Shown here piece after piece: positions 19,394 to 22,900 of a stretch of DNA of 64,000 nucleotides. The DNA comes from an uncultured Pelagibacteraceae bacterium (GTDB taxonomy: Bacteria; Pseudomonadota; Alphaproteobacteria; Pelagibacterales; Pelagibacteraceae). The notes beneath the pieces are model-generated. The model was not told the origin of the DNA. It was given only the letters and a program-made list of their open reading frames with translations, and ran no database searches. The stretch is from NCBI GenBank assembly GCA_902555435.1, contig CACDRL010000001.1, positions 191,758 to 255,757 on the forward strand. The letters are read 5' to 3'. The position numbers and the translations under genes are program-made. Position 1 is the first letter of the stretch; each line of letters starts with the position of its first letter.

Positions 19394-20218
19394 ATGACTG
19401 ATAAAAAGCCAGAACTTAGTGACGCAATGAAAAAGAAGCTGGAGCCTAAGAAATTTACAAAAAATCCAATCTTAGGAACAAAATTTACTATCGCAATTTC
19501 TAGTGCAAAAGGAGGTGTGGGTAAATCAACATTTGCAACAAACCTAGCTTTAGCTTTAAAAAAAGTTGGATGCAAAGTTGGATTGTTAGATGCTGATATT
19601 TATGGTCCTTCTGTACCAAAAATGTTTAACATTAATGAAAAACCAAAAAGTGATGGTCAAAAATTAGATCCTATAACAAAATATGACATTCAATGTATGT
19701 CGATTGGATTTTTAGCAGATCAGCAAACTCCGATGATTTGGCGTGGTCCAATGGTAACTAGTGCAATTAAAACTTTTACTCAAAAGGTTAATTGGAAAGA
19801 TTTAGATTTTATAATTGTTGATATGCCTCCAGGAACTGGTGATACTCAATTAACATTTTCACAAGAAATTAAAATGGATGGCGCAATCATTGTATCAACT
19901 CCACAAGAAGTTGCCCTTTTAGATGTAAAAAGAGGAATTAAAATGTTTGATAAACTTGGAGTTAAAATTTTAGGTTTAGTTGATAACATGAGTTTTTTTG
20001 TTGGAGATGATGGAAAGAAGTACAAAATATTTGGAGAAGGTGGAGTTAAAAAAACTGCTGAAGAATTTCAAAAAGATTTTTTAGGAGAAATACCAATAAA
20101 TCCTGAAGTTGGAAACTCTGGTGATCAAGGAAAACCAATAGTCGAGTCGAAACCGGACCACGAGATTTCAAAAATATATTTGGATTTTGCTGAAAAGATT
20201 AAATCAACTTATCTTTAA
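19394..20218 (+). CDS. mrp: Mrp/ApbC family P-loop ATPase (Fe-S cluster carrier)
   Basis: [43 protein letters not shown]. Confidence 0.95.
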
Positions 20219-21146
20219 GATCAAAAGCAGTCATTAATTCATTCCACTCTCTTTTAGAAAGACCTGAACTCTCAACATCTACATTTTCACCTTTAATAAG
20301 TTTTTGAATTATAACTTTGCCTTTTGCAGAGACCTCTGTTCCACCTACTCTATAATCCATAAATGCATCATAAGTTATTGGTACCCATTTTTTTACTGTA
20401 TCTAACATTATATCTGCATAAACTCTAATTTCGTACTGAGCATGACTGTCAGCTCTTAACCTTAAAAAATTCATTAAATTTAATAAATCGGTTTTCCAAT
20501 ACCACTGTGTATAAGTATTCAAAGTTAAGTTCATTCTTGCAAGCTCTCTTGCTAATCCTTTTTTATTCTCATCAATTGTTGAACCATCATATCTTTCATT
20601 AAGCATTGTCTCATAATTGTCATAAGTTCTCTCTGCATCACTTTTTAAAAGTTCTAGAACTTCTTCAGCCTGTTTTCCTTCAAGGACATCTCCTCTTCCC
20701 TGTCGATTGCTAGTTGACTGTGCTGCTAAATTTTCTTTAGATGGTAAGTAGAATTCTTTATCAAGAATTGAATATCTTGCAGAGTATTCATTTACATTTG
20801 CTGTTCTATGCCTAATCCACTGTCTTGCAATAAATATTGGAAGTTTAATATGATATTTAATTTCACACATTTCAAATGGCGTACTGTGCCAATGTCTCAT
20901 CAAATATTTTATCAAACCTTTGTCTGTTGAAACTTGCTTCGTCCCTTTTCCATAAGATACTCTTGCAGACTGAACTATAGAAGTATCATCTCCCATATAA
21001 TCAACCACCCTTACAAATCCATGGTCTAGGGCTGGCAGAGCTTCATAAAGTATTTTTTCAAGCTCTGGAGCGGTAACTCTTTTGGTTTGATTACTCTGAG
21101 ATTGTTGATTTTTTATTTCTTCTGATTGTTCTTTGGTTAATTTCAT
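20199..21146 (-). CDS. thyX: FAD-dependent thymidylate synthase ThyX
   Basis: [15 protein letters not shown] (ThyX RHRxxSxNxxSxR-like motif); proposed true start [12 protein letters not shown] at 21146. The 41 upstream codons in the ORF track are antisense to the tmRNA gene and its promoter. Confidence 0.95.
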
Positions 21147-21154
21147 GATTATTA

Positions 21155-21182
21155 TTGAATCTGTTGAAATTACTTTTATATT
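21155..21182 (+). promoter_or_regulatory. Candidate sigma-70 promoter for tmRNA (TTGAAT - 16 nt - TATATT)
   Basis: -35-like TTGAAT at 21155-21160 and -10-like TATATT at 21177-21182; predicted start about 21188 matches the inferred acceptor-piece 5' end. AT-rich background limits specificity. Confidence 0.45.
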
Positions 21183-21187
21183 ATTAA

Positions 21188-21445
21188 CGTTGGATTTCCA
21201 ACTACGACGATAAACGAATTTCGTAATAACCATTGCGGACGTGGGGGCAGTACCCACCACCTCCACCATTACAACTTACGGGGGTGAACTAGAATCGACG
21301 AATGACTAAAAGCTATTCTTTCGTTCGGGATTGTTCCACCGTAACGGGCTAATTTATAATTGCTAACGAAAGTTACGCACTTGCTGCATAATTAACTTAG
21401 TTAATTAAGCACGGGGTCCGGGGCACCTGGCAACAGAACGCCCCT
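21188..21445 (+). ncRNA. ssrA: Circularly permuted two-piece transfer-messenger RNA (acceptor piece about 21188-21268, internal spacer 21269-21279, coding piece about 21280-21445)
   Basis: ...GGACGTGGGGGCAGTACCCACCACCTCCACCA ends at 21268; 11-nt spacer; GGGGGTGAACTAGAATCGACG starts at 21280. 5' GGGGGUG pairs with 3' CACCUCC (G3.U wobble kept). Tag ORF 21362-21391 GCT AAC GAA AGT TAC GCA CTT GCT GCA TAA = ANESYALAA*. Downstream GGGGCACCTGGCAACAGAACGCCCC stem. Confidence 0.95.
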
Positions 21446-21484
21446 TCTCATTTGTTAATTTATATAATAAACAAAACAACTCTT

Positions 21485-22900
21485 ATGATAAAACTAATAA
21501 AAAAAAATTTTACTTATTTCTTAATAGTCTTTTTAACAATCCTGCTCGTAACTGGATACTTTGTAAATAGAGAGAATTCTTTTTCAAAAAAAAATGAAAT
21601 TGCAAACTTTGCTAAGCAATTAAATATTAGGAATGATCAGATAGTAAAAATTCAAGAAAATTTATTTAAGGATGGAAAAAATATTAATGATTTGATTAAT
21701 GAAAAACAAATTACTTTTGACAAAATATTTGCGAATAAAAAATTAGATGAAGTTATTGGTGATCATTTTTCAAAAGATTATAAAAATAATAATAACTTAA
21801 ACCAATATCTGGTCTCAAAATATAAAACTAATGATATGTTGTTTACAGGGAATATTGGAGCAACTGCTACTGGTTACCTAGATTTTTTTAACAAAGATCA
21901 AAATTTATTAATGACAACATATGATGGGATTTTTGCATACTCAGATATAAAAAATATTGAAAATTTTAAAAAAATTAAATCTAACTTTAGAGATTTCATA
22001 AATTATGATGAATTTCATTTTCATCTTCAATATGGAATTAAGGATATATTTGTAAATAAAAATATAGTTTACATATCTTATATCGATGAAGAATCAGAAG
22101 ATTGTTTTGATCTAAAAATAATTTCTGCAAATATTAATGTTGATTTTTTAAGCTTTGAAAATTTTTTTAAAACTTCTGATTGTGTTAGAGTAAATAATGG
22201 CCATGGTTTTTGGCCACACCAAGGCGCAGGGGGTAGAATTTTTCTTGTAGATGAAGATCATATTTTATTCACAACAGGTGATTTTAGAAATAGACCTTTG
22301 GCTCAAGATCCTAAAAGTGATTTTGGTAAAATTATTAAAATAAATCTTAAATCAAAAAAAGGTAAAATTGTTTCAATAGGACATAGAAATCCTCAAGGTT
22401 TATTCTATAGCAAAAGATTTGATTTTATCTTATCAACTGAGCATGGTCCCAAAGGAGGCGATGAAATAAATTTAAATCACAAACCTTTTAATCAAATAAA
22501 AAATTTTGGTTGGCCAATAGCATCTTATGGAGATCATTATCACAAAAATTATTCTGAAAAGATAATAAAAGAAGCTCCTTTAAATAAAAATCACAAAAAA
22601 TTTGGATTTAAAGAGCCAATAAAATATTTTGACCCTTCTATTGGTATAAGCGAAGTCAAGTCAATTAACGATGAAGATAATATTTTTTTTATTGGCGCTA
22701 TGGGTAATGAAATCAAAGATATGGATTTAGGACTACATTTAATTGAGTTAGATAAAAAACATAAGAAAATAATTAAACATGTATATGTCCCATTAAATGA
22801 GAGAATAAGAGACATTATTGTGTCTGAAAAAAAGGACGTTATAGTATTATTTCTTGAAACTACTTCGTCATTATTTATTTTTAAAAAACAATCTAAATAA
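21485..22900 (+). CDS. Membrane-anchored PQQ-dependent glucose/sorbosone dehydrogenase-like (GSDH beta-propeller) protein
   Basis: IGHRNPQGLFYS, STEHGPKGGDEIN motifs; N-terminal TM; start MIKLIKKNFTYF at 21485 preferred over 21452. Confidence 0.75.
   Translation: MIKLIKKNFTYFLIVFLTILLVTGYFVNRENSFSKKNEIANFAKQLNIRNDQIVKIQENLFKDGKNINDLINEKQITFDKIFANKKLDEVIGDHFSKDYKNNNNLNQYLVSKYKTNDMLFTGNIGATATGYLDFFNKDQNLLMTTYDGIFAYSDIKNIENFKKIKSNFRDFINYDEFHFHLQYGIKDIFVNKNIVYISYIDEESEDCFDLKIISANINVDFLSFENFFKTSDCVRVNNGHGFWPHQGAGGRIFLVDEDHILFTTGDFRNRPLAQDPKSDFGKIIKINLKSKKGKIVSIGHRNPQGLFYSKRFDFILSTEHGPKGGDEINLNHKPFNQIKNFGWPIASYGDHYHKNYSEKIIKEAPLNKNHKKFGFKEPIKYFDPSIGISEVKSINDEDNIFFIGAMGNEIKDMDLGLHLIELDKKHKKIIKHVYVPLNERIRDIIVSEKKDVIVLFLETTSSLFIFKKQSK

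Follow-up and report, generated by a model that had tools for sequence, protein, structure and literature searches.

SAR11 bacteria rank among Earth's most abundant cells. They are regarded as streamlined and few mobile elements are known from them, yet the gene pool that they share is large.

The Caulobacter-type two-piece tmRNA of Alphaproteobacteria (RF01849) is encoded in permuted order, with an acceptor stem, an encoded CCA, the G3.U70 pair, a tag reading frame and the conserved 3' end GCACCTGGCAACAGAA. The two-piece form arises by cleavage of permuted tmRNA transcripts (PMC11915505). For SAR11, Meyer et al. 2009 described a permuted tmRNA in Ca. Pelagibacter ubique HTCC1062, which is overlapped by an over-called thyX (PMC2704228). 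In Islander tRNA/tmRNA genomic islands, the 3' end of the gene is whole and its displaced copy forms the far border (PMC4383910). Tycheposons are elements of 4-200 kb that insert beside RNA genes of streamlined aquatic bacteria and carry a tyrosine recombinase (PMC10872708). Integron gene cassettes consist of small tandem cargo beside a repeated site, and Wilhelm et al. 2007 reported SAR11 hypervariable regions without attC sites (PMC2217521).

A permuted tmRNA gene beside thyX

The window, i.e., the whole stretch of 64,000 nucleotides analyzed here, almost certainly carries an alphaproteobacterial-type tmRNA (ssrA) gene in circularly permuted form. The genome is that of a SAR11 (Pelagibacter-like) bacterium, and the transcript would be processed to two RNAs that act in ribosome rescue. 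A sequence-only reading had proposed such a gene with a 7-bp acceptor stem, an alanine-identity G3.U wobble, a tag ORF and a GGGGC/GCCCC stem. All of these elements are present, the wobble being G3.U70, as is an encoded CCA, and the proposed coordinates were exact to the base. The Rfam covariance model alpha_tmRNA (RF01849) matched 21151-21448 on the plus strand with 221.5 bits (E 7.9e-63), against a gathering threshold of 50 bits, and the model tmRNA_permuted (RF04321) matched the same locus with 123.4 bits (E 1.2e-23). ARAGORN in permuted mode called a permuted tmRNA at 21173-21482 with the tag ANESYALAA, a frame that terminates in a hydrophobic degron, as expected for a member of the alpha_tmRNA family. 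The features of the region are:

20199-21146, minus strand: thyX (Pfam Thy1), with its true start probably at 21146, although the ORF was called up to 21269
21155-21182, plus strand: candidate sigma70-like promoter TTGAAT-16-TATATT from a consensus scan, predicted transcription start at about 21189
21189-21202, plus strand: precursor 5' hairpin GTTGG-ATTT-CCAAC, an alpha_tmRNA consensus stem also seen in the MFE fold
21206-21268, plus strand: acceptor piece (tRNA-like 3' piece), from sequence, Rfam model and fold; 5' boundary approximate
21241-21257, plus strand: T arm
21258-21264, plus strand: acceptor stem, 3' strand CACCTCC
21265, plus strand: discriminator A
21266-21268, plus strand: encoded CCA
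21269-21279, plus strand: linker TTACAACTTAC, 11 nt, from sequence and relatives; presumably excised by tRNA-processing enzymes
21280-21286, plus strand: acceptor stem, 5' strand GGGGGTG
21280-21444, plus strand: mRNA-like (5') piece, GGGGGTG through the terminal stem, from ARAGORN and Rfam; 3' boundary approximate
21362-21391, plus strand: tag reading frame ANESYALAA*, resume codon GCT, from ARAGORN
21420-21444, plus strand: 3' core GGGGCACCTGGCAACAGAACGCCCC, the tmRNA terminal stem and, in relatives, the cassette border repeat
21420-21424 and 21440-21444, plus strand: terminal stem strands GGGGC and GCCCC
21452-22900, plus strand: glucose/sorbosone dehydrogenase (GSDH) family gene, directly behind the tmRNA

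RNA folding of 21188-21300 recovered the 7-bp acceptor stem and the T arm at -33.3 kcal/mol (z -2.6), and none of 200 shuffles was as stable. The promoter candidate sits just upstream of 21188, where the sequence-only reading had placed the gene start, and its TATATT falls inside the stretch also covered by the alpha_tmRNA model. The consensus scan found six sigma70-like sites in the region against 2.8 expected from shuffles, which makes the promoter evidence weak when taken alone.

The gene was missed by the ORF track, as had been remarked from the sequence, because an over-long thyX ORF call covers its beginning. This call (20199-21269, minus strand) is 41 codons too long, and its first 41 codons lie antisense to the beginning of the tmRNA region. 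With the in-frame Met at 21146 (MKLTKEQ...), which is likely the true start, thyX stays clear of the tmRNA. The same head-to-head overlap with an over-called thyX is found at the permuted tmRNA of HTCC1062, and the sole difference of note is the right-hand neighbor, COG4696 there and the GSDH-family gene here (PMC2704228). With this ortholog on record, the tmRNA in the window is an already known gene of known kind. Taken alone, it calls for an annotation correction, i.e., adding ssrA and shifting the thyX start to 21146, and otherwise matters little. Relatives of the GSDH gene with 60-62% identity occupy the same place behind the tmRNA in two further loci (L115, L117).

The locus is single copy in its own genome, which is 94% complete and in which the one-piece tmRNA model (RF00023) gave sub-threshold, tRNA-sized matches only. 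SmpB is encoded in the same genome (PF01668, 195.5 bits, G000:C8). A tmRNA-family match was obtained in all 19 near relatives that are at least 90% complete and in 275 of 289 genomes of the class Alphaproteobacteria. The acceptor stem with G3.U70 is identical in all members of the order having the region. Across the class, pairs 5 and 6 show compensatory changes that leave the stem complete (GGGGGTG/CACCTCC, GGGGGCG/CGCCTCC, GGGGACG/CGTCTCC, GGGGTCG/CGACTCC and GGGGATG/CATCTCC), and the terminal stem shows paired changes between families (GGGGC/GCCCC vs GGGAG/CTCCC).

Linker length and processing

Compared with the RF01849 consensus, the window gene has a shorter linker (11 nt) and a shorter 3' domain, both of which are usual in SAR11. 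Measured directly, linkers of the genus have 10-16 nt and those of its sister family within the order 4-9 nt, giving 4-16 nt over the whole order. Elsewhere in Alphaproteobacteria it spans 5-92 nt with a median of 33 nt (47 loci), and six of these loci have a linker of 11 nt or less; the spread is indicative, as the 47 loci were taken from the well-scoring matches listed and had to show the G3.U pair to be counted. The linker had been called very short from the sequence. These measurements bear that out for the class, whereas for the clade 11 nt is ordinary, and we dropped the linker as an oddity after the comparison with relatives.

By analogy with the tmRNA family, one precursor would be transcribed from about 21189 and would fold with the tRNA-like 3' half and its encoded CCA upstream of the mRNA-like half. 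The tRNA-processing enzymes would then excise the linker, with RNase P cutting at 21280 and 3' trimming proceeding to 21268, and the two RNAs would stay joined through the paired strands of the acceptor stem and helix 2. Following charging by AlaRS via G3.U70 and delivery by SmpB, stalled ribosomes would be rescued and the tag, Ala plus ANESYALAA, added. The loop closed by the acceptor stem measures 15 nt (ACCA plus the linker), which looks tight for RNase P; yet relatives with linkers of 4-7 nt retain both the stem and the CCA. The question of how RNase P copes with a linker of 4 nt is not special to this window.

A linker of 11 nt here, and as short as 4 nt in the sister family, could also mean that the precursor stays uncleaved and constitutes a novel one-piece permuted tmRNA. 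We consider this very improbable, since every member of the order measured retains the CCA and G3.U70, though an uncleaved RNA would have no free CCA end for charging, and permuted tmRNA transcripts get cleaved to the two-piece form (PMC11915505). Even more remote, to the point of being negligible, is the idea that the locus is a pseudogene or a displaced tmRNA fragment that an integrated element left behind. Displaced tmRNA 3' ends do occur in relatives, but the gene in the window is complete, with stem, CCA, tag and stop intact, and no other tmRNA was found in its genome.

The tmRNA 3' core as a cassette border in relatives

Weak extra alpha_tmRNA matches were obtained in relatives. Those examined are copies of the last ~25 nt of the tmRNA, GGGGCACCTGGCAACAGAACGCCCC, and were therefore rejected as additional tmRNAs. 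Allowing at most one mismatch, the 21-nt inner core occurs in 166 of 201 genomes of the genus, with two or more copies in about 70 of the 201 as counted from the table, while a reversed control pattern gave no match in the same 201 genomes. None of 53 genomes of the sister family contains the core, as the tmRNA there has a different terminal stem. The core copies come after stop codons, in sense orientation. A GUUC/GAAC pseudoknot within the core was considered and is unsupported, because the GUUC side varies (GGGGTCC, TTT, TAT) and the other side is constant.

Behind the tmRNA core at these loci come small gene blocks, at least one per locus, every one of which ends in a further core; the old neighbor, often ppdK, comes next. 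About 110 core-to-core blocks of 121-4625 bp were found behind tmRNA, pnp and other genes (L145-L164, L186-L265), a count that is slightly high as some loci duplicate each other, e.g., L151/L211; the shortest blocks hold no ORF. On the cassette side of 76 of 135 distinct non-tmRNA cores lies an arm, GAACTTTG. Of these 76 arm-bearing cores, 63 are accompanied, 40-130 nt away, by a directly repeated word of 5 nt or longer that recurs at intervals of exactly 11 bp. Shuffling this 40-130 nt stretch by mononucleotides gave 4 such cases, and other periods gave 1-10. The repeated word varies by cassette (GTGCGGA, TGTGCCA, CCGACC, CGTCCA, GACGAGT and others). Since 11 bp corresponds to one helical turn, the period points to a protein bound along a single face of the helix, and the repeats may represent arm-type recombinase sites or else activator or repressor sites (promoter operators). 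They often come with an inverted third copy.

Searching GTDB genomes for arm plus core returned 102 stretches, and the matches listed all belong to Pelagibacteraceae or Pelagibacterales. Most of them bear single-cell names, which argues against binning errors. In genome G028, the cassettes carry a variant core, ACCGGGTAACAGAAC, and arm, AGAAGCACGGTCT, which are the same as in its own tmRNA (L043, L163), a match that links the borders of the cassettes with the gene of the host.

We lean toward the reading that, in the genus Pelagibacter, an undescribed gene-cassette system uses the tmRNA 3' end as an attachment site, which may have been its first one; its cassettes would lack an integrase and would be moved by a recombinase supplied in trans. 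Each unit would comprise a copy of the 25-nt core, usually the arm GAACTTTG..., the 11-bp-period repeats and one to few cargo genes mostly read toward the tmRNA. Cassettes would insert, often in tandem, behind the tmRNA, with pnp and a small gene ending LLNKALELFKS as secondary sites. As a pattern in relatives, the attachment-site role is well supported. The window's own genome has the tmRNA copy of the core only, and no second core lies behind the GSDH gene at 21452-22900, so that its site is one without a cassette.

Alternatively, the dispersed core may be a 3'-UTR RNA element, i.e., a terminator or stabilizer used by several genes, with the blocks shuffled by homologous rather than site-specific recombination. 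The position of the copies after stop codons in sense orientation is consistent with this, as are the core at the pnp 3' end of loci without a cassette (L109, L119, L124) and the failure to recognize a recombinase in the cassettes among the best 25 of 59 Pfam families. Against this reading stand the arm at 76 of 135 non-tmRNA cores and the 11-bp repeats on one side and in one range in 63 of those 76. Moreover, tmRNA loci that are 94-97% identical diverge completely from the core end on (L148/L160 at +26, L149/L150 at +25), and the pnp site is known both empty (pnp-core-downstream gene in L119, L124 and L109) and occupied (pnp-core-cassette-core in L158), with the core present in both versions. 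We therefore regard the RNA-element explanation as rather unlikely and favor the cassette system.

Like Islander islands, the cassettes leave the gene 3' end whole with a displaced copy at the far border, and an empty site is known; they differ in being 0.1-4.6 kb in size and often in tandem, in holding no recognized integrase, and in having the core also at several protein-gene ends (PMC4383910). Integron cassettes likewise are small tandem cargo beside a repeated site, but no IntI or attC was recognized here, the searches being those with PF00589. Insertion beside RNA genes of streamlined aquatic bacteria is common to tycheposons, which differ in their size and in their tyrosine recombinase (PMC10872708). 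No earlier description of such cassettes was found in the open-access literature, most subscription papers and all preprints being outside this scope, and we treat their novelty as provisional. If the reading is correct, small cassettes anchored on a core RNA gene would give SAR11 a concrete route for gene turnover, and the predicted excised circles and restored empty sites would be searchable in existing read data.

Cargo and candidate movers

The cassettes contain 194 ORFs of at least 60 codons, 158 antisense and 36 sense to the tmRNA, and their proteins form 124 similarity clusters. The cargo is varied, and its domains include N6/N4 DNA methylase, the MrcB-like N-terminal domain, SRA, SET, GIY-YIG, T5orf172 and a GSDH; the latter, in L153, is a distant relative of the window gene (36% identity). 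The cargo also includes many small secreted proteins, and some cargo proteins match models of candidate defense proteins. A near-identical signal peptide, MKKLLGIVVLGLL..., starts many cassette genes with unlike bodies (L145, L163, L198, L200, L202, L241, L262 and others), as if a leader and promoter were common to different cassettes.

Among the best 25 of 59 Pfam families for 96 cassette proteins (to ~E 1e-14), no integrase was found, and since these were the best 25 only, a weaker integrase match could exist. PF00589 searches showed that most genomes encode a single Xer-like protein (about 310-337 aa), located away from cores, and that a few genomes have larger integrases. The larger integrases of G028 (C42) and G468 (C2) were discarded as a linked mover, as no core lies within 7 kb around them. 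In G016, two cores lie 32 kb apart; the idea of a prophage between them was likewise set aside, there being no PF00589 match in that genome.

We also considered the core as a phage attP. In IMG/VR, the relaxed core matched six more contigs that lack a tmRNA; the flanks there resemble coding DNA from other organisms, and we took these matches as chance. Arm plus core gave no match. Every contig with the exact 25-mer also has a permuted tmRNA gene; ORFs were read in two of these contigs, which look phage-like. The attP idea was rejected. These viral contigs (L097-L104) encode a permuted alpha-type tmRNA with the exact SAR11 3' core and the tag ADENLALAA; phage-borne two-piece tmRNA is already known (PMC9004378).
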